From Patescibacteria group bacterium (GTDB lineage Bacteria > Patescibacteriota > Microgenomatia > 2-02-FULL-39-11), in the NCBI GenBank assembly GCA_023379265.1, contig JAMCUI010000006.1:1-33085 (forward strand): DNA of 33,085 nt, read 5' to 3'. Each line of letters begins with the position of its first letter. Position 1 is the stretch's first letter. The position numbers and the translations under genes are program-made. The notes under the pieces are model-generated. The model did no database searches. It worked only from the letters and a program-made list of their open reading frames with translations, and was not told where the DNA came from. Of the stretch, positions 13,264 through 28,289 are shown in pieces.

Positions 13264-14349
13264 TTATTGAAGCTTATTAAAAGGATTCTGGTAAGCCGAA
13301 TTGCTGGCGTTGGCTGACTGTGTGGCTCCGGCAAAAGGATTCTGGTATGAGCCGAAAGGATTCTGATAAGTGGCAGAAGGCGAGGCGAAGGGATTTTGGA
13401 AAGCGGCCGACGGTGAGGCAAAAGGATTGGCATATGAAGTAGGAGTATGTTTAAGTGTGACAGGTGGAGTGATTTTGGGAGTGGTGGAAGTAGAGGAGTT
13501 GTTCTGTACTGATTTTTGGAAAAATAGAAAAGACCCGGTAAATCCGACAATCATCAGGATAAGAAGTACGGTAATAAACATGAAGGGGAATTTCTTACCA
13601 CCAGAGGGTGGTATAGAAGCTGTAGTTACCGGTTCAGGTATGTTTCCAGGAGGTGGTGCAGATCCACCTGTGGTTCCACCCGTTGGCGGAATAGATGTCG
13701 TAGTTACCGGTTCAGGTATGTTTCCAGGAGGTGGTGCAGATCCACCTGTGGTTCCACCCGTTGGCGGAATAGATGTCGTAGTTACCGGTTCAGGTATGTT
13801 TCCAGGAGGTGGTGCAGATCCACCTGTGGTTCCACCCGTTGGCGGAATAGATGTCGTAGTTACCGGTTCAGGTATGTTTCCAGGAGGTGGTGCAGATCCA
13901 CCTGTGGTTCCACCCGTTGGCGGAATAGATGTCGTAGTTACCGGTTCAGGTATGTTTCCAGGAGGTGGTGCAGATCCACCTGTGGTTCCACCCGTTGGCG
14001 GAATAGATGTCGTAGTTACCGGTTCAGGTATGTTTTGTTCGGTGGGGGGAGTGGTGGAATTAGTATTTTCCGGACGGGAAGTTTGGGTTGTAGATGTAGA
14101 AACTTCCAACGGTTGAACTGAGGGTTGAGAAGAGACGTTGTTTCCCATTGATTGAACAGGCGGCTGGTCCGGGGCAGTGGTATTTTCCAACGGTTGAACT
14201 GAGGGTTGAGAAGAGACGTTGTTTCCCATTGATTGAACAGGCGGCTGGTCCGGGGCAGTGGTATTTTCCAACGGTTGAACTGAGGGTTGAGAAGAGACGT
14301 TGTTTCCCATTGATTGAACAGGCGGCTGGTCCGGGGCAGTGGTATCCAT
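13264..14349 (-). CDS. Repeat-rich membrane protein with proline-rich N-terminus and NPF tail
   Basis: The 361-residue protein starts with three copies of a 27-residue unit (APDQPPVQSMGNNVSSQP core). Five near-identical 26-residue units built on NIPEPVTTTSIPPTGG follow, with a sixth diverged at its end. One membrane helix (FPFMFITVLLILMIVGFTG) follows a GGKK stretch. The tail of about 85 residues holds five NPF motifs in FxNPFASPSA-type repeats. The KK before the helix predicts the Pro-rich part inside and the NPF tail outside. Function is unknown; it may be a scaffold or an envelope-spanning linker. The ATG is fixed by a TTGACA-17-TAGTCT promoter 6 nt upstream. The cysteine-repeat gene follows after 1 nt. 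Confidence 0.72.
   Translation of the reverse strand: MDTTAPDQPPVQSMGNNVSSQPSVQPLENTTAPDQPPVQSMGNNVSSQPSVQPLENTTAPDQPPVQSMGNNVSSQPSVQPLEVSTSTTQTSRPENTNSTTPPTEQNIPEPVTTTSIPPTGGTTGGSAPPPGNIPEPVTTTSIPPTGGTTGGSAPPPGNIPEPVTTTSIPPTGGTTGGSAPPPGNIPEPVTTTSIPPTGGTTGGSAPPPGNIPEPVTTTSIPPTGGTTGGSAPPPGNIPEPVTTASIPPSGGKKFPFMFITVLLILMIVGFTGSFLFFQKSVQNNSSTSTTPKITPPVTLKHTPTSYANPFASPSAAFQNPFASPSATYQNPFGSYQNPFAGATQSANASNSAYQNPFNKLQ
13626..14036. repeat. Tandem repeat, 78-bp unit, five identical copies plus a partial sixth
   Basis: The unit beginning TTACCGGTTCAGGTATGTTT recurs at 13626, 13704, 13782, 13860 and 13938, with no base difference that I can find. A sixth start at 14016 diverges after about 20 bp. The period is 26 codons, so copy-number change keeps the frame of the NPF/proline-rich protein. 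Confidence 0.95.
14104..14345. repeat. Tandem repeat, 81-bp unit, three copies
   Basis: The unit beginning TTCCAACGGTTGAACTGAGG recurs at 14104, 14185 and 14266 with essentially identical sequence. The period is 27 codons, and the array encodes the N-terminal end of the proline-rich membrane protein. It is unrelated in sequence to the 78-bp array beside it. Confidence 0.95.
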
Positions 14350-15291: not shown

Positions 15292-15963
15292 TTATTCTTC
15301 TGATGAGGGTGAATTTATTTTTTTGTTCTTTTCATCTGTCGGTGTGTTCCCAAGTTCATCCTGCCCGTTTTTAGAAGTCTCAATCGCTTTTTCAATTACC
15401 GGCACAGCAGTTGTCGGAGCGGATTTTTTTATTTCCTCCAGTTTCTGTGTCTGGTCCTCCAGATGTTGATCTGTTTGTTTGATTACTTCTTCTTTCTGGT
15501 TTTCAACCTTTTTTATTTCCCCGACTGCGCCCTTCACTTGCGATTCGTAATTTGAGGTGATATTTTCTATCTCACCATCTCCATTTTTATTTATGGTTTT
15601 TTTCAATTCTTCTATTCTTTTGTCTGCATTATCAAGATGAAGAAGAGTTTTGACGCTTGGATTTTTTGTCAGACTGAGTTGAGCATTTTCGACCATAATC
15701 TTGACCGGATAAAGCAGGTCTTTTGGATTACTTTTTTCTGCGGCAAATACAATTCCTGTTCCTCCCAGAAATACCAGAAGGATAGCGGCAATCGCGAGTT
15801 TCCAGGAAGGAGCCGGTAAATATAAGAAGCTTGGGTTTGTAACAGACAAGGATGGTACCATTTTTGTCATTATTTTTTTCCGGAATTTATCCCCCGGTTT
15901 CACCAATCCCAGGTTTTTTATTTGTTTTATTAAGCTGGCGTATTCTTTTTCCACGTTATTCAT
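15292..15963 (-). CDS. Membrane anti-sigma factor with DUF5667-like domain
   Basis: Residues 1-53 are cytosolic and should bind the sigma factor. A single helix follows (WKLAIAAILLVFLGGTGIVFAA, residues about 54-75). Just after it, KSNPKDLLYPVKIMVENAQL with a following hydrophobic helix is the DUF5667 signature, common in Patescibacteria next to sigma factors. The rest is a charged, probably coiled-coil stretch (about 110-190) and a polar tail. The start codon overlaps the sigma stop as ATGA, so the two are translationally coupled. It most likely holds the sigma factor at the membrane and releases it on an envelope signal (inference from family and context). Confidence 0.82.
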   Translation of the reverse strand: MNNVEKEYASLIKQIKNLGLVKPGDKFRKKIMTKMVPSLSVTNPSFLYLPAPSWKLAIAAILLVFLGGTGIVFAAEKSNPKDLLYPVKIMVENAQLSLTKNPSVKTLLHLDNADKRIEELKKTINKNGDGEIENITSNYESQVKGAVGEIKKVENQKEEVIKQTDQHLEDQTQKLEEIKKSAPTTAVPVIEKAIETSKNGQDELGNTPTDEKNKKINSPSSEE

Positions 15964-16526
15964 TTTACTAAAAGGTTCCTTAATTTTTTTAACGCTCTGG
16001 ACTGTAGAGCCCTGATGGCATCTTCTTTCTTGTTGACGATTTTGGCAATCTCGTCATTTGTCATGTCTTCAATGAATCTTAGAGTAATTACCTGTTTTTG
16101 CTCGTCAGTAAGTTTATTAATAGCTTGTGCCAGTTCCCTCAATTCGAAATTTTGAATAATTTTTTCCTCCAGACTAACTTTTTCTTCGACTAGACCCTCT
16201 TCAAGGGTAACTTGTTTCCGGTTATCGCGGAAGTGGTCGATTACAGCATTATGGGCAATTCTATAGAGCCATGATTTAAGGGTACCGCTATTCTCATCAA
16301 ATACTTTTATGTGATTCCATGCTCTAAAGAAAACTGTTTCTGCTAAATCTTCGGCAGTTTGCTCATTCTGGTTGACGCGAAAGTAAATATAACGGTAGAT
16401 TCCATCCAGATATTTTAGATAAATTTTGCCGAAGGCATCGCAATCGCCACGTTTTGCCATTTTTACTAAAATATAATCGGAAAGGCCTTCAACGGCCTTG
16501 AATCTCTTTGCCAGCCAGCTAATCAT
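15960..16526 (-). CDS. ECF-type RNA polymerase sigma factor
   Basis: The 188-residue protein has sigma region 2 (DAFGKIYLKYLDGIYRYIYF, then AEDLAETVFFRAWNHI and LKSWLYRIAHNAVIDHFRDN) and region 4 (KLTDEQKQVITLRFIEDMTN, then DEIAKIVNKKEDAIRALQSR). It has no region 1 or 3, which is the ECF layout. Region 4 contacts the -35 element. The ATG 9 nt after a TATAAT is taken as the start. The in-frame extension to 16571 lies mostly upstream of that box and adds residues not seen in the family. It overlaps the anti-sigma gene by 4 bp. The target promoters are not evident; the Asn-rich protein gene next door is one candidate. Confidence 0.9.
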   Translation of the reverse strand: MISWLAKRFKAVEGLSDYILVKMAKRGDCDAFGKIYLKYLDGIYRYIYFRVNQNEQTAEDLAETVFFRAWNHIKVFDENSGTLKSWLYRIAHNAVIDHFRDNRKQVTLEEGLVEEKVSLEEKIIQNFELRELAQAINKLTDEQKQVITLRFIEDMTNDEIAKIVNKKEDAIRALQSRALKKLRNLLVK

Positions 16527-16535
16527 TAACTCACT

Positions 16536-16541
16536 ATTATA
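16536..16541 (-). promoter_or_regulatory. -10 box TATAAT of the sigma/anti-sigma operon
   Basis: A perfect TATAAT on the minus strand ends 9 nt before the chosen ATG of the sigma gene. A weak GTCACA lies 18 bp further upstream. The arrangement implies a leaderless or nearly leaderless transcript. Confidence 0.55.
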
Positions 16542-16600
16542 ACGTAGGAATTGATATTTTGTGACGCACAAATGAAATCGTCTATGTGGAAATATGAGAT

Positions 16601-21722: not shown

Positions 21723-23276
21723 ATGATTTTCTTTTCTGATTGTCACCGCCTTATCAGACAAAATATCAGACCCTTAGCTATTATTATCCTGATTTTGTTT
21801 TTCATTTTTCTCACACGTGGGTACGAAAACAAGATCTATTCCTTCAGTTTTGTTGACGAAGAGGACAATATGGCAATTGGTAAATTCCTCCTAAAAGGTG
21901 AAAAACTTTACGGAGATATTTATACCAACCATCAGCCGGTCACATACATCATGAGTGCGGTAATCCAAAAAGCCATCCATCCTAATTCCATTCCGCTTAT
22001 CGTGAAAAGGTTTAGAGAATCAGTTATTCTCTGGTCGTTTATTTTTTCGTTTATTCTCATGTTGCGTTTCGGTCCATGGGTGCTTCTATTTATCATTCCT
22101 TTTGAAATGACCAAAAATATCATGCTGGGTCAGGTATTTCTGGCAGAATCGTTTGTCGTTTATCCCGCAGTCTATCTTGCCGGACTCGTCCTTTTACCGC
22201 ATCAGAATCTTGGGGAAAAAGATTTATTTTTTGCTGGAGTGTTGTTAGCGTTTATAGCTTTTTCGCTTCTGCCACTTCTACCCTTTGTTGCGTTTGTAAT
22301 TTTGGCTTTAACTCTAAAATTACATCGGGGAAAAAGAGCGAAGATGATGCTTTGCCTTTCAGGATTTCTTATTGTTTTGGTAATCGTATCTTATTTTTCT
22401 TCTTTAGGGAATTATTTTCGTGATACATTTATCGCCAACTATTTCTATTATCTTCCTTCAGTAGGAATAGTAGGGGAGACGGCAAATCCTTTAGCTGGTA
22501 TTCTGGCGCCTGTGCATTATCTGCCGGCTTTTTTCGACCTATCACTTTTTTCCAGGCTATTGGCCCTGAATTCCCTAGTGTATTTATTTTGTATTCTTAT
22601 TCTTTTTGCATCCGGCACCGTTCTTTTGCCATTTTCCATGATATTTCTTGCCGGTTTTGCTAATGTGCGCTCAGTTGACCTGGTAAAGGAGTTTTTCAAC
22701 GGTTTCCATGTCTTGCCGTGGTACGGCCTCATGTTGTTTTTAATTTCATTTGCGGTAGTGAAAATTAAGGATATAAAAATAAATAGGCCGGTCCGATCAA
22801 TCTTTTTCCTTCTGGTGATGTTTGTTTTCTTCCTCAACTCCTATTTAGCCAAGGATTATTTTCTTTCCAGGGTCAATAGGGAAGGTGATGCTTATATAAA
22901 CTACTCAAAGCAGTTTGATGATGCTGAAGCCGTAAGAATTATGAATAGCGGAAATGACACATTGTTTGCCGCCTACGATGGGTCTCTCATTTATTGGTAT
23001 TCAGGTGTCCGCCATGCTTCACCTGCTGTATTTTATTATCCCTGGATGCGCGACCTGCCATATCTGAAATCCCAAGTTGACGAAATGTTTACCAAAAGCC
23101 CGCCGGCATTTCTATATCTTTCCTATGTACAGAAAGATTTATGGCCGTATCTTGACATATACGAAAGATTAAGGAAGGATGAACACGAGACAAATTTATA
23201 TGTATTGAAAGAAAAGGTTGCTGCTTTGACAAAGGAGCAATATAAGGGCTTGGATTATTACAGGTTTAGCTTCTAA
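21723..23276 (+). CDS. Polytopic membrane protein, GT-C (PMT-like) glycosyltransferase
   Basis: The 517-residue protein has a first helix (AIIILILFFIFLTRG) and then the loop FVDEEDNMAIGKFLLKGEKL, followed by YGDIYTNHQP. This acidic loop after helix 1, with a G-x-x-x-Y-x-D stretch, is typical of PMT/ArnT-type GT-C transferases that use polyprenyl-phosphate sugars. About ten membrane segments follow, then a soluble C-terminal part of some 130 residues (SRVNREGDAYINYSKQFDDA to the end). The target is unknown; protein or envelope glycosylation is plausible, since the window encodes many Ser/Thr/Asn-rich exported proteins. The stop overlaps the stop of the convergent reductase gene by 4 bp. Confidence 0.72.
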   Translation: MIFFSDCHRLIRQNIRPLAIIILILFFIFLTRGYENKIYSFSFVDEEDNMAIGKFLLKGEKLYGDIYTNHQPVTYIMSAVIQKAIHPNSIPLIVKRFRESVILWSFIFSFILMLRFGPWVLLFIIPFEMTKNIMLGQVFLAESFVVYPAVYLAGLVLLPHQNLGEKDLFFAGVLLAFIAFSLLPLLPFVAFVILALTLKLHRGKRAKMMLCLSGFLIVLVIVSYFSSLGNYFRDTFIANYFYYLPSVGIVGETANPLAGILAPVHYLPAFFDLSLFSRLLALNSLVYLFCILILFASGTVLLPFSMIFLAGFANVRSVDLVKEFFNGFHVLPWYGLMLFLISFAVVKIKDIKINRPVRSIFFLLVMFVFFLNSYLAKDYFLSRVNREGDAYINYSKQFDDAEAVRIMNSGNDTLFAAYDGSLIYWYSGVRHASPAVFYYPWMRDLPYLKSQVDEMFTKSPPAFLYLSYVQKDLWPYLDIYERLRKDEHETNLYVLKEKVAALTKEQYKGLDYYRFSF

Positions 23277-24808
23277 CTCTCCGCGTATCCAGGGAAAAAG
23301 TCGGTTTTAATATTTCCTTTATTTATTCCCATTCCTTTAAGCATGTTTTCAATAGATTGGACCATTAGCTGTGGGCCGGAGATGTAATAGGTTCTGTTAC
23401 CCCAATCCGGTACCTCAACCTTTATCATTTCAGGCGTCGGGCGACCGACTTTGCCTTTCCAGTTTTGCGGGATGGCAGCCGTATCCGTAAGTGAATAAAC
23501 CGTTCTAACTCCATATTTTTCCGATTCAGCTAGAGTATCGGCAAAGTAGATATCCTGGATAGTGCGGTTTATGAAGAAAAGGACTATATTGCATTTTATC
23601 TTTTTGTCGACTATATAGCGTATCATGCTGCGGAAAGGTGCCACTCCCACTCCGCCTGCAATAAAAACCAGGGGTACTTGGGGGTTGTCCGGCATGACAA
23701 AATCACCGGACAGCTGGGCAGCTATGATTTTCTGGTTTGGCATCAGGTTGTATAAAGCCCTTTTATAGCTACTGGACGGAACATAAAATTTTACGGCGAT
23801 AATAAGATTTTGCTCTGTAGGTGAAGAGGCTAAACTGAAATAGCGTCTGTCACCTCGGTTATCAGAATTGTCATGGGGAAGAGTCCACTCCATATATTGA
23901 CCGGGAATGTATTTGATTTTATCAGGTGTATCGAAAATGTAGGCGAATGTGTCAGGAGAGAGCCTTAGTTTATTTCTCAGCATCAATGATAATCTGTATT
24001 TAGGATTGACTATATATGAATATATATTACTGATGCAAAGTGCTACTTCAGGTGTCACGACAATACCCAAAAGGTGAAGTTGAGGAGTGGCGTAGAGAAG
24101 AGCTGTAAGAGCGCTATATCTGCTTTGGTGTTTCTTGGTTGCGGGGGAGGTAATGGGTTCAGTCAGCATGACAAAGGTGAAAAAGAAGAGGGCAGTATGT
24201 AAAAGGCTGTCTTTGAAGGTTGTGATCAGAGAAGTGATGGAGCCGGTATGAAATATGGCAAAGAGGGCTACAAGTATAAGGTATACAGAAATAAATACTG
24301 ATACCAAACTTTCCCTTTCAATTTTGCGCACCAGAAGCAAGCCACCGGCAAACACGAATGGTAACATGACGGGTGTACCCACCCACCAGGTGGCTATATG
24401 CTCAGGAGATAAAAGCGCCACACCCGCTACAGCAGCTGCGGCTGGATTGAAAATATGTTTTTTTTCGACAGTCAGAAGATATTTTGAAATCATGGCGAAG
24501 CCAGAGGCAAGAATAAGAAATGAGACGTTGGAAGGGAATTTTGTGGGGATGATAAGGACTAGTATTAGGGCTGTAATAAGATATGATTCCGTATTGGTGG
24601 TGGCATGGAAAAATTTGGAAAAGACAAGATTTGATATATCACAAATTAATACCGCAAGAAGGGTACTGAGAATAATATCAAGCGGTTGATAAGGCATAAG
24701 ACCAAATAATCCCGCAAATGTGGCGACTCCTACCAGCATGATAAGGTAATACAGCGTCAGCCGGTACATCGTGGTTTTGTTTAAAAATGAATCAATAGTG
24801 TTTATCAT
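23273..24808 (-). CDS. RnfD/NqrB-like membrane domain fused to an NqrF-like FAD/NAD(P) reductase domain
   Basis: Residues 1-260 hold about ten membrane helices with the family marks HIFNPAAAAVAGVALL and FVMLTEPITSPAT. Residues 280-511 form a ferredoxin-reductase domain: YIPGQYMEWTL, RRYFSLASSPTEQ (FAD-binding R-x-Y/F-S-x-x-S), FIAGGVGVAPFRSM (NAD(P)-binding) and YYISGPQLMVQSIE. The protein should take electrons from NAD(P)H through FAD and pass them across the membrane. No SGAT flavinylation motif is visible in the membrane half, and no 2Fe-2S ferredoxin domain is present, unlike true NqrB and NqrF. ApbE and an FMN-binding protein lie directly upstream on the same strand. Direction of flow and the role of ion pumping are inference. 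Confidence 0.87.
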   Translation of the reverse strand: MINTIDSFLNKTTMYRLTLYYLIMLVGVATFAGLFGLMPYQPLDIILSTLLAVLICDISNLVFSKFFHATTNTESYLITALILVLIIPTKFPSNVSFLILASGFAMISKYLLTVEKKHIFNPAAAAVAGVALLSPEHIATWWVGTPVMLPFVFAGGLLLVRKIERESLVSVFISVYLILVALFAIFHTGSITSLITTFKDSLLHTALFFFTFVMLTEPITSPATKKHQSRYSALTALLYATPQLHLLGIVVTPEVALCISNIYSYIVNPKYRLSLMLRNKLRLSPDTFAYIFDTPDKIKYIPGQYMEWTLPHDNSDNRGDRRYFSLASSPTEQNLIIAVKFYVPSSSYKRALYNLMPNQKIIAAQLSGDFVMPDNPQVPLVFIAGGVGVAPFRSMIRYIVDKKIKCNIVLFFINRTIQDIYFADTLAESEKYGVRTVYSLTDTAAIPQNWKGKVGRPTPEMIKVEVPDWGNRTYYISGPQLMVQSIENMLKGMGINKGNIKTDFFPGYAES

Positions 24809-24868: not shown

Positions 24869-25633
24869 TCAATTTACCAAATATTTCTCAAATCCCCTAG
24901 TAAAGACTGCCCTTTTATCTTTTGTCACCATATATGCTTCGAATCCCGGTAGCGTGGCGATAAACTCGATGCCTTTTTCTCCCATGGCAAAAGCGGCTGT
25001 GGCAAAACGGTCAGCCTCATAAACATCCGGGCCGACGACTGAGATAGAGACTATTTCATCTGCCGCTTTAGCCCTTATCGGATTATATATATGTTTTCCC
25101 CGGATATAATTTCCAGAGGTGGCAATACCTTTATCTGTAAGGTAAAGAACTTTGATTATTTCTTTCTTATTGAAGGGATTTTGAAGGCCTACTTTCCACT
25201 TCGTCCCGACCTTGAGTAGGGACTCAGTGCAAGCATTACTATACCCGTGAATCTGGATATCTCCTCCTATCTCGACAAAAAAATTCCTGTACCCTTTGTC
25301 TTGCAGCATGTCGGCTCCCTTTTTTATAGCGTAGCCTTTGACTATGCCTGACGGGTCGATTTTGCTGCCGATATGTATGTCAAAATACCCTTTTGTTTCT
25401 TGTTTAGTCTTTTGGCAAAGGGACATTATAAGTTTCATTTCAGGGCTGAAATCTTTTTCTTTTATCTCTCCCCGGTTTATCTTTTCCATCTCACTACCGC
25501 TTTTATATGTGCTGAATTTGCGGTCTATATGGCGGAAAAAATTAAATACGTCATTTATATCTTCTGTCCTTGCGTATCTATCCGCAATTTCAATTGATGA
25601 GGGCATCCCCATGACCAACTGTTGTTTTTTCAT
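24869..25633 (-). CDS. apbE: ApbE-family FAD:protein FMN transferase
   Basis: ApbE attaches FMN covalently to Thr or Ser in target proteins. The marks are FSTYKSGSEMEKINRG near the N-terminus, KIDPSGIVKGYAIKKGADML, FFVEIGGDIQIHG and GIATSGNYIRGKHIYNP. They supply the FAD and metal site. The protein is 254 residues, shorter than secreted ApbE lipoproteins. It begins MKKQQLVMGMPSSIEI, and a TGA codon lies two codons upstream of the ATG, so no signal peptide can be added. It therefore appears cytosolic, although its likely target is outside. The gene lies between the FMN-binding protein gene and the reductase gene, 60 bp before the latter. Confidence 0.92.
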   Translation of the reverse strand: MKKQQLVMGMPSSIEIADRYARTEDINDVFNFFRHIDRKFSTYKSGSEMEKINRGEIKEKDFSPEMKLIMSLCQKTKQETKGYFDIHIGSKIDPSGIVKGYAIKKGADMLQDKGYRNFFVEIGGDIQIHGYSNACTESLLKVGTKWKVGLQNPFNKKEIIKVLYLTDKGIATSGNYIRGKHIYNPIRAKAADEIVSISVVGPDVYEADRFATAAFAMGEKGIEFIATLPGFEAYMVTKDKRAVFTRGFEKYLVN

Positions 25634-25866: not shown

Positions 25867-26427
25867 TCAATGTGCTTGGCTTAACGCATTTGCAAGCGAT
25901 TGTTGAAAGGCCATGCTGGTATCGGAAGCTCCTGAAACGATATTTACATTGGCGTTTTGAGCCTGTATTGCTTCATCTTTCAGATAAGGCATCGCTTGGC
26001 TGTTTATAAATCTTGATGTGCCATTGTCATTGGGATACTGGAGGAAAGTGACATCAGTTATTCTGCCTCCGGAGATATTTACCTGTACCTGTACATTACC
26101 GTAGTAAGCGTCTTCCACGCTTCCTGTATATGTGCCGTTTTTGTACTGGCCGCTGTTTTGCTGTACCGTCGGTTGAGGAGTGGCGGATGGTATATAGATC
26201 GCTGGTTGCTGGTTGCTGGTTGCTGGAGAATTATTATTTGAGGAAGAAGTAGGATTATTGGATACGGTTGAATTTGCAGTGTTTGGTTGGAGGTTGTTTT
26301 GGTTTGAAGGTAGAGTTTGGATGTTGGCAATAATAGGTTGAGGTGTCTCATCCACTCTGGAATTCTTTAGTATTACCAGGATGAAAAAGACCGACATGAC
26401 TATTGTGATTTGCAAATATTTTCTCAT
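25867..26427 (-). CDS. Anchored extracytosolic FMN-binding (FMN_bind/NqrC-RnfG-like) protein
   Basis: A membrane anchor at residues 5-22 (LQITIVMSVFFILVILKN) is followed by about 70 residues of Asn/Ser/Thr/Pro linker. An FMN_bind domain then runs from YKNGTYTGSVEDAYYGNVQV through ISGGRITDVTFLQYP to NIVSGASDTSMAFQQSL. SGAS is the flavinylation site to which ApbE attaches FMN; the acceptor position is Ser rather than the commoner Thr. The protein should be a flavin electron carrier on the outer face of the membrane. Its gene comes first in the order FMN-binding, apbE, reductase. The promoter lies at the end of the kinase gene, with repeats matching those of the response regulator promoter. Confidence 0.88.
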   Translation of the reverse strand: MRKYLQITIVMSVFFILVILKNSRVDETPQPIIANIQTLPSNQNNLQPNTANSTVSNNPTSSSNNNSPATSNQQPAIYIPSATPQPTVQQNSGQYKNGTYTGSVEDAYYGNVQVQVNISGGRITDVTFLQYPNDNGTSRFINSQAMPYLKDEAIQAQNANVNIVSGASDTSMAFQQSLANALSQAH

Positions 26428-26505: not shown

Positions 26506-26541
26506 ATTATAGCCTCAAATCATGAAGAAATTATGAAGTAG
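26506..26541 (-). promoter_or_regulatory. Promoter with OmpR-type direct repeats before the flavin electron-transfer genes
   Basis: Read on the minus strand: CTTCATAA, 3 bp, CTTCATGA, then TTTGAGGC, then TATAAT. The two 8-bp boxes are 11 bp apart, as for OmpR/PhoB-type dimers, and cover the -35 region, which fits an activator site. The boxes overlap the stop codon of the histidine kinase. The transcript would have a leader of about 70 nt before the FMN-binding ATG. Confidence 0.72.
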
Positions 26542-27580
26542 AAAGTGGCAGGTTTATTGTAAACATTGTTCCCACGCCTTCGGTGCTTTCCACTTTTATT
26601 TCCCCTTTATGTTTTTCAATAATCGCTTTTGTGATCGGTAGCCCGAGACCGCTTCCACCAGCAGTATTTTGGGTACGGCTGTTATCAGCACGGTAAAACC
26701 TGTTGAATATATAGGGAAGTTTATCCTTGGGTATACCTATTCCAGTATCGGAGATAGTGATGACGGCTGTATGACCGGATTTGTTGAGACTGATTGTTAT
26801 ATTGCCATTCTTTTTGTTATAGTCTGTTGCATTTTTCAGGACATTGTAGATGGCACGGATAAGAGAGTCATTATCTCCGGCCACATACATGTTTTCTCTG
26901 GATATATTTTTTAGCTTGATAGTGACTTTTTTGGATTTGGCATATGCTGTAAGGCTCTTAGCGGATGATCCAAGTATCTTTGTCAGGCTGATTCTTACTG
27001 TTGAAGGATACTGTTTGCCAGTATTATCCAATCGGGACAACAGCAGCAGGTCGTTTACCAGTTTGGTCATTCTGTTTACTTCCTCAAGATTGCTTTCAGT
27101 CTCCTTTTTATAGGCATTGCTTTGCATGTTTTTTGCGTTTAGTGTCACTTCCATATTGGCTTTCAGGATAGAGAGGGGAGTGCGCAGTTCGTGAGAAGCG
27201 TCCGACAGAAAACGTTTCTCTTCATTCATCATTTTCTGTATGGGAGAAAGAGTAATGCGGGCTAAAAAGTAGCTTACTGCCCCGGCAAATATGAGGATAC
27301 CGATGTTTACCACTACCAATACCGTACCCAATTCATCTTGTGCCTCGTTGACAAAATATTCCTCTTGTTTTTCTGTGGTGGCATGGCGTTCTGCTGTCGC
27401 CTGTATATTTCTGCTGAAGCCAAAAAAGATAATCTGGCTGAATACAAAAAGGATGACAGCAATTATAGTGATATAGATGAATGTCAGGCGGATGCTGGCT
27501 CTGAGAAACAGGTTGTTTCTTATGGTGTTTATGAATTGTCTGAGGGAAAGATTTGGTACTGACGTATCGCTTTGTTTCAT
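26531..27580 (-). CDS. Sensor histidine kinase
   Basis: The 349-residue kinase has two membrane helices (about residues 28-55 and 84-108) around a short, charged outer loop of about 30 residues. A HisKA domain carries the phosphorylated His in SDASHELRTPLSIL. An HATPase domain shows the N box (LIRAIYNVLKNATDYNKKNG), G1 (ISDTGIGIPKDKLPYIFNRF) and G2 (GGSGLGLPI). No separate sensor fold is present, so it probably senses through the membrane or the short loop. It starts 2 nt after the response regulator stop, so the two form an operon. Its last codon overlaps the operator of the FMN-binding gene. Confidence 0.93.
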   Translation of the reverse strand: MKQSDTSVPNLSLRQFINTIRNNLFLRASIRLTFIYITIIAVILFVFSQIIFFGFSRNIQATAERHATTEKQEEYFVNEAQDELGTVLVVVNIGILIFAGAVSYFLARITLSPIQKMMNEEKRFLSDASHELRTPLSILKANMEVTLNAKNMQSNAYKKETESNLEEVNRMTKLVNDLLLLSRLDNTGKQYPSTVRISLTKILGSSAKSLTAYAKSKKVTIKLKNISRENMYVAGDNDSLIRAIYNVLKNATDYNKKNGNITISLNKSGHTAVITISDTGIGIPKDKLPYIFNRFYRADNSRTQNTAGGSGLGLPITKAIIEKHKGEIKVESTEGVGTMFTINLPLSTS

Positions 27581-27582
27581 AG

Positions 27583-28248
27583 TTAATCTTTAAGCTTATA
27601 GCCAATTCCTCTGACTGTTTCTAATTTCTTGGCATATTCGCTTTTGAGCTTTTTGCGCAGGTTCTTTATGTGTACGTCAACAGCGTTGCTGAAAGAGTCA
27701 TAGGACATATCCCAGACATGATCCAGTATCTGTTCGCGCTCAAGAGCAATATTTTTATTGCGCAAAAGATATTCCAGAAGCCTGAATTCACGCAGAGTTA
27801 GTTTAATTTCTTTACCATCTATTTTGACCGTCTGGGTCCGAGTATCAAGTACCAAGTTTCCGGATTTGAGAACTGGAGGTAGAGTTTCGCGCGGCCGCCT
27901 GAGAAGCGCCCGGACACGGGCCAGAAGCTCAGAAAATTCAAAAGGTTTGATTATATAATCATCCCCGCCGCTATCCAATCCCGCAATTTTGTCTTCCAGA
28001 GTATCTTTGGCTGTGAGAAATAGGACAGGTGTATGTATGCCGTTTGAGCGAAGTGATTTACAAAGTGTCAGGCCGTCTTTCTCAGGCAGCATGACATCAA
28101 GTACGATAAGGTCATAGGAGTCGTTTTCGGCAAAAAGCTCGCCTTCTTTTCCGTTGAAAGCACTATCCACTGCATAACCTTTCTGCTGCAGGCCTTTTTT
28201 TATGACAAGGTTTAGTTTTGCTTCATCTTCAATAACCAAAATACGCAT
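27583..28248 (-). CDS. OmpR/PhoB-family response regulator
   Basis: The 221-residue protein has a receiver domain (RILVIEDEAKLN with the acidic pair, LIVLDVMLPEKDGL with the phosphorylated Asp near residue 51, LFLTAKD, and DDYIIKPFEF with the Lys). A winged-helix C-terminal domain follows (LTLREFRLLEYLLRNKN, ILDHVWD, SNAVDVHIKNLRKKL, VRGIGYKL). It is phosphorylated by the adjacent kinase and binds direct repeats. Such repeats occur upstream of its own gene and of the FMN-binding gene. The ATG lies 8 nt after a TAAAAT box, so its mRNA is probably leaderless. Confidence 0.95.
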   Translation of the reverse strand: MRILVIEDEAKLNLVIKKGLQQKGYAVDSAFNGKEGELFAENDSYDLIVLDVMLPEKDGLTLCKSLRSNGIHTPVLFLTAKDTLEDKIAGLDSGGDDYIIKPFEFSELLARVRALLRRPRETLPPVLKSGNLVLDTRTQTVKIDGKEIKLTLREFRLLEYLLRNKNIALEREQILDHVWDMSYDSFSNAVDVHIKNLRKKLKSEYAKKLETVRGIGYKLKD

Positions 28249-28256
28249 ATATAAGA

Positions 28257-28289
28257 ATTTTACCCTAAAATCATGAAGATTTCATGAAG
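28257..28289 (-). promoter_or_regulatory. Autoregulatory promoter of the two-component system with direct repeats
   Basis: Read on the minus strand: CTTCATGA, 3 bp, CTTCATGA, then TTTTAGGG, then TAAAAT, then 8 nt and the ATG of the response regulator. The two boxes are identical and 11 bp apart. The layout matches the site before the FMN-binding gene position for position. Confidence 0.75.

Follow-up and report, generated by a model that had tools for sequence, protein, structure and literature searches.

Putative tandem operators of an OmpR/PhoB-family regulator at its own promoter and at a flavin-module promoter in a Patescibacteria genome

The PhoB operon of Escherichia coli is autoregulated. 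PhoB is an OmpR/PhoB-family regulator that binds CTGTCAT, repeated in tandem at 11 bp (PMC4832192), and Mycobacterium tuberculosis PhoP reads TCACAGC-N4-TCACAGC, its Glu215 contacting C19′ opposite the G of TCACAGC (PMC4832192; the pairing of C19′ was worked out from the statement there that G21′ pairs with C7). NQR/RNF-like flavinylation systems have been defined by Meheust et al. 2021 (PMC8238504), in a paper that mentions neither Patescibacteria/CPR nor histidine kinases in its main text. As far as the literature searched shows, hardly any transcription-factor sites have been mapped in Patescibacteria (CPR), because so few of these bacteria grow in culture. The locus described below lies in the window, a stretch of 33,085 nucleotides that belongs to the genome of an uncultured Patescibacterium, here called G000.

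The operon and its two promoters

The minus strand of the window encodes, in this order, a response regulator, a sensor histidine kinase, an FMN_bind protein, an ApbE flavin transferase and a fused NqrB/RnfD-NAD-binding protein. The regulator (27583..28248, 221 aa) matches Response_reg (8.9e-27) and Trans_reg_C (3.1e-26) above the curated cut-offs, as expected of the OmpR/PhoB family; its receiver domain carries the predicted phosphorylatable aspartate Asp51 in the motif LIVLDVMLP, as judged from the sequence and alignments, and its winged helix has Asp191 in the recognition helix. The kinase (26531..27580, 349 aa) has HisKA and HATPase_c domain matches and two hydrophobic segments that can be read from its sequence. 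The FMN_bind protein (25867..26427, 186 aa, FMN_bind 2.4e-08) is membrane-anchored or secreted, and its SGASDTS resembles the ApbE flavinylation motif, a putative site of covalent flavin attachment. Below it are the ApbE flavin transferase (24869..25633, 3.9e-41) and the fused protein (23273..24808), in which domain matches place the NqrB/RnfD-like membrane domain PF03116 before a C-terminal NAD-binding domain, PF00175; its closest named relatives, at 54% identity, are from Candidatus Levyibacteriota, which points to a patescibacterial host. With FMN_bind and ApbE nearby, this is the composition of an NQR/RNF-like flavinylation system. Elsewhere in the window, the protein encoded at 13264-14349 consists of two tandem repeat blocks (TTAPDQPPVQSMGNNVSSQPSVQPLEN and PEPVTTTSIPPTGGTTGGSAPPPGNI), and at 15292-16571 an ECF-like sigma gene is followed by a gene for a membrane protein, placed as an anti-sigma factor would be.

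Upstream of the regulator gene, a putative operator at 28271..28289 (minus strand) consists of the half-sites CTTCATGA (28289-28282) and CTTCATGA (28278-28271), with an 11-bp period, and the -10 box TAAAAT (28257..28262, minus strand) lies 8 bp past it. A second putative operator at 26520..26538 (minus strand), with the half-sites CTTCATAA (26538-26531) and CTTCATGA (26527-26520), precedes the -10 box TATAAT (26506..26511, minus strand) of the flavin module. The first-pass annotation had described an identical operator-promoter layout at the two genes, and both minus-strand sequences (28289-28257 and 26538-26506) read as it quoted them, sharing the pattern CTTCATRA-N3-CTTCATGA-N8-TANAAT and placing direct repeats at the 10-11 bp spacing of a tandem operator beside a -10 box. 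A search for the full pattern that tolerated as many as three mismatches returned only these two sites in the window, and nothing in 100 dinucleotide shuffles. In scans of the genome (1.53 Mb, 20 contigs), which consisted of pattern matching only, the 19-bp double box CTTCATRA-N3-CTTCATGA has two perfect matches, both in this operon; one mismatch adds no further match, and the next-best matches carry two.

In the regulator promoter, 8 nt separate the end of the -10 box from the ATG (28248). Transcription is therefore expected to begin at or within a few nucleotides of the start codon, and the mRNA should be leaderless or nearly so. No TTGACA-like -35 element was found at the usual spacing in this promoter. 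The flavin-module promoter is situated at the end of the kinase gene, its -10 box ending 78 nt upstream of the FMN_bind start codon (26427) and its upstream half-site overlapping the last kinase codons and the stop codon (..ACT TCA TAA). Part of the conservation of this half-site could reflect coding, as it overlaps the Ser-stop codon pair.

Very likely, both sites are tandem operators of the operon's own OmpR/PhoB regulator, through which it would activate its own transcript and that of the flavin module. The adjacent kinase would phosphorylate the regulator, which would bind as a head-to-tail dimer, each subunit on its own CTTCAT half-site and the half-sites recurring every 11 bp, and the bound regulator would stand in for the missing -35 element beside -10 boxes of the sigma70 type. 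Activation of the regulator-kinase mRNA, starting at or near the ATG, would amount to positive feedback, while activation of the FMN_bind-ApbE-NqrB/RnfD mRNA would serve extracytosolic flavin electron transfer. Binding, activation rather than repression, the leaderless start and dependence on phosphorylation are all predictions from sequence; the pair of boxes itself is very probably a real operator and, for the most part, a conventional control switch.

The promoter plan of OmpR-type regulator genes

The 11-bp tandem geometry that the first-pass annotation had invoked for OmpR/PhoB regulators was confirmed on the 70 bp upstream of each of 135 distinct genes for OmpR-type regulators in this group. 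An exact 7-mer is repeated at 11 bp in 35 of the 135, compared with 0-2 at every other spacing from 7 to 25 bp. When the full site was defined as TT[CA]A[TG]-N6-TT[CA]A[TG] with a small tolerance, followed at a fixed distance by TANNNT, it was found in 93 of the 135 upstream regions, in none of the reversed sequences and in 0-3 of the shuffled ones. The -10 box of these 93 genes begins 24-27 bp after the first half-site, and in 73 of them the start codon stands 6-9 nt past the -10 box, implying leaderless mRNA. The tandem-site plan thus belongs to the regulator genes of this group generally, and the site in the window is one case of it.

These promoters also bear on the sign of regulation. The regulator might bind both sites and act as a repressor, blocking RNA polymerase at the -35 region in a negative autoregulatory loop. 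The sites do cover that region, and sequence is silent on the sign, but there is no -35 hexamer there to block: no -35 consensus is visible in the regulator promoters, where the column consensus is CAGCTA or CATGAA. Moreover, the distance to the -10 box is held at 24-27 over 93 genes, as with activators that replace the -35 element (the geometry of the pho box). Repression is accordingly considered improbable, and activation by the regulator is the preferred reading.

Two main types of box, TTCAT and TTCAG, occur in the group, and the fifth letter goes with residue 191 of the recognition helix: Asp with T (..CAT) in 30 of 30 and Glu with G (..CAG) in 62 of 62. Residue and letter thus agree in 92 of 92 regulators, one mixed site being left out. 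The regulator tree needs a single change of box type, so that the 92 cases are not independent, and the agreement is consistent evidence without being independent proof. Residue 191 aligns with Glu215 of M. tuberculosis PhoP, and E. coli PhoB has Asp at this position in the alignment.

There is perhaps an even chance that the OmpR-type regulators of Patescibacteria follow one plan, consisting of a self-read 11-bp tandem site, no -35 element and a leaderless regulator mRNA, with the choice between CAT and CAG boxes set largely by the Asp/Glu residue, with regulons readable directly from the genomes of unculturable bacteria, and with the flavin module moving between lineages as a cassette together with its regulator and operators.

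Occurrence of the sites with the regulator and candidate targets

The closest ortholog of the regulator (70% identity) is found in G180, a genome of the same class and a different family, in a locus that matches the window's operon in all five genes and in their order (kinase 49%, FMN protein 44%, ApbE 49% and fused protein 55% identity). Both sites are present (TTCATGAAACCTTCATCAGAGCGGAGTACAAT and TTCATGATCTCTTCATCCGGCTTCCGTAGACT) and spaced as in the window, the half-sites at 11 bp and the -10 box 15 bp from the second TTCAT, and the second site likewise overlaps the kinase stop codon. Across the phylum, TTCAT-N6-TTCA[TC] stands upstream of 13 of 14 regulator orthologs (56-100% identity), and in the exception, G623, the site stands after the kinase gene instead. 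The expectation that the same boxes would precede orthologous operons was thereby borne out. The pattern TTCAT-N6-TTCAT-N9-10-TANNNT has 28 matches in the 14 genomes with an ortholog, against one for the reversed-pattern control, compared with 14 against 10 in 50 genomes that lack it. Two of the loose-pattern matches in ortholog genomes (G505:C3 and G498:C32) fall within opposite-strand genes and were rejected as noise.

Of 374 genomes sampled in the class, 3 have an ortholog, as do 10 of 380 sampled in the phylum; the ortholog is absent from the other 14 family members, and a search of 15 genomes of the family and order found it only in the window's own genome. This patchy distribution fits horizontal transfer, which may have spread the system. 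At one locus (L247, G030:C11), a TTCATGAAAACTTCATC site and a -10 box at 1501-1790 precede a truncated regulator of about 53 residues; the kinase and the DNA-binding domain are gone and the downstream gene is the same as in G258. At L247 the system has decayed but kept an intact operator.

Four OmpR-type regulators are encoded in G000, and a paralog rather than the adjacent regulator might read the boxes. The paralog at C7:129865 also has Asp191, with a TTCAC/TTCAT repeat before its gene, so that cross-binding is possible, but the other two paralogs have Glu191 and the CTTCAT sites accompany the adjacent regulator's orthologs and not the paralogs. A paralog as the reader of the boxes is considered very unlikely. 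That the repeats are a sigma-factor promoter element, for instance of the ECF-like sigma factor encoded within the window (15960-16571), or a chance resemblance is hardly credible, given a -10 box of the housekeeping form TATAAT, an 11-bp direct repeat such as regulator genes typically have, chance controls near zero and a motif that follows the regulator ortholog. Returning to the operon's own regulator as the reader of both sites, the site upstream of its gene is conserved with it, and the earlier predictions of positive autoregulation and of direct control of the FMN/ApbE/NqrB-like module appear well supported by conservation of the sites and their co-occurrence with the regulator.

Most ortholog loci have a second site after the kinase gene or a little further on, ahead of a gene whose product is secreted or belongs to the envelope; sites placed after the kinase as in the window occur in G258, G425, G633, G498 and G669. 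The second site precedes FMN_bind genes in G000, G180, G404 and G669, and in G623 it leads into a gene for an SH3-domain protein, with FMN_bind one gene on. In G425, G633 and G505 (where the site is weak) it precedes a gene for a secreted protein of 161-176 aa, with no Pfam match in the two that were scanned, and in G258, G381 and G498 a gene for a secreted protein of 90-95 aa with a GGHQD motif, with no Pfam match for the one that was scanned. One more site of G623, away from this locus, precedes a gene for a NAGPA-family phosphodiester glycosidase, a homolog of which adjoins the regulator in G381. Control of the flavin module, as proposed by the first-pass annotation, therefore stands for the operon of this genome, where the adjacent operon is a likely target, and is too narrow for other genomes, where second sites precede other secreted or envelope genes; the wider role of the regulator looks like control of envelope functions.

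Two features of these protein families may be recorded. The helical proteins of 161-176 aa encoded after the kinase at L221, L223 and L224 recall Spy/CpxP-like envelope stress proteins in size and position only. The family of 90-95 aa ends in GGHQDxxGxNxxHxFxGxE (L168 3563-3847, L188 4007-4294 and L226 after 3599), each member being preceded by a site.

Within G000 the loose pattern has five matches, the two operon sites and three others, all three with the 11 + 15 bp spacing: before an MFS transporter gene (C9:109024-109055, 8 nt from the -10 box to the ATG), before a gene for a 183-aa membrane protein (C10:3641-3672) and before a gene for a 110-aa secreted protein (C15:23712-23743). Their -10 boxes end 8-45 nt upstream of the genes, all three sites are correctly oriented and none falls inside a long gene; they are no more than candidates for additional members of the regulon. 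As the repeat pattern has two exact matches and these three looser ones directly upstream of genes, it is not common elsewhere in the genome, contrary to what would have counted against the proposal.

Among 23 FMN modules without the ortholog, 20 lack such a site within 160 bp of the start. The other three (L033, L034 and L043) are preceded by a tandem site of the CAG type at 11 bp, compared with none at other spacings or in the reversed control and at most one in simulated sequences. These three weakly suggest that OmpR-type control of the FMN module may reach beyond linked regulators. A strict 12-position pattern, applied ahead of the FMN module to 29 loci with an NqrB homolog, gave nothing convincing; most of those genomes lack the regulator ortholog. 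In G381 and G382 the ortholog stands beside other genes, and the FMN module is on another contig, adjoining a different two-component system.

Comparison with known systems

A site pattern with near-zero controls, tied to a residue and to leaderless starts, would make regulons of the phylum predictable and testable in vitro, and the operon would link a signalling system to a flavin-based electron path in these reduced bacteria. The flavin module resembles the NQR/RNF-like flavinylation systems (PMC8238504) in its FMN_bind protein, its ApbE and its NqrB/RnfD domain fused to a NAD-binding domain, and differs from them in its link to a two-component system that has an operator of its own. M. tuberculosis PhoP, among the best solved-structure matches of the regulator, has the same 7+4 bp repeat, and its Glu215, equivalent to position 191, contacts the base that varies here; the regulator of the window has Asp191 and CAT boxes, whereas the CAG-type paralogs of Patescibacteria are in this respect closer to PhoP. 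The likeness to E. coli PhoB extends to Asp at the position of residue 191 and CAT in the box. In contrast to the pho box, the half-site here is CTTCAT, not TGTCAT, no phosphate genes were seen beside the sites, the predicted targets are flavin and envelope genes, and the regulator mRNA appears to be leaderless. The OmpR/PhoB tandem operator is thus a kind already known, and what is new is a member of it from a group with almost no mapped sites.
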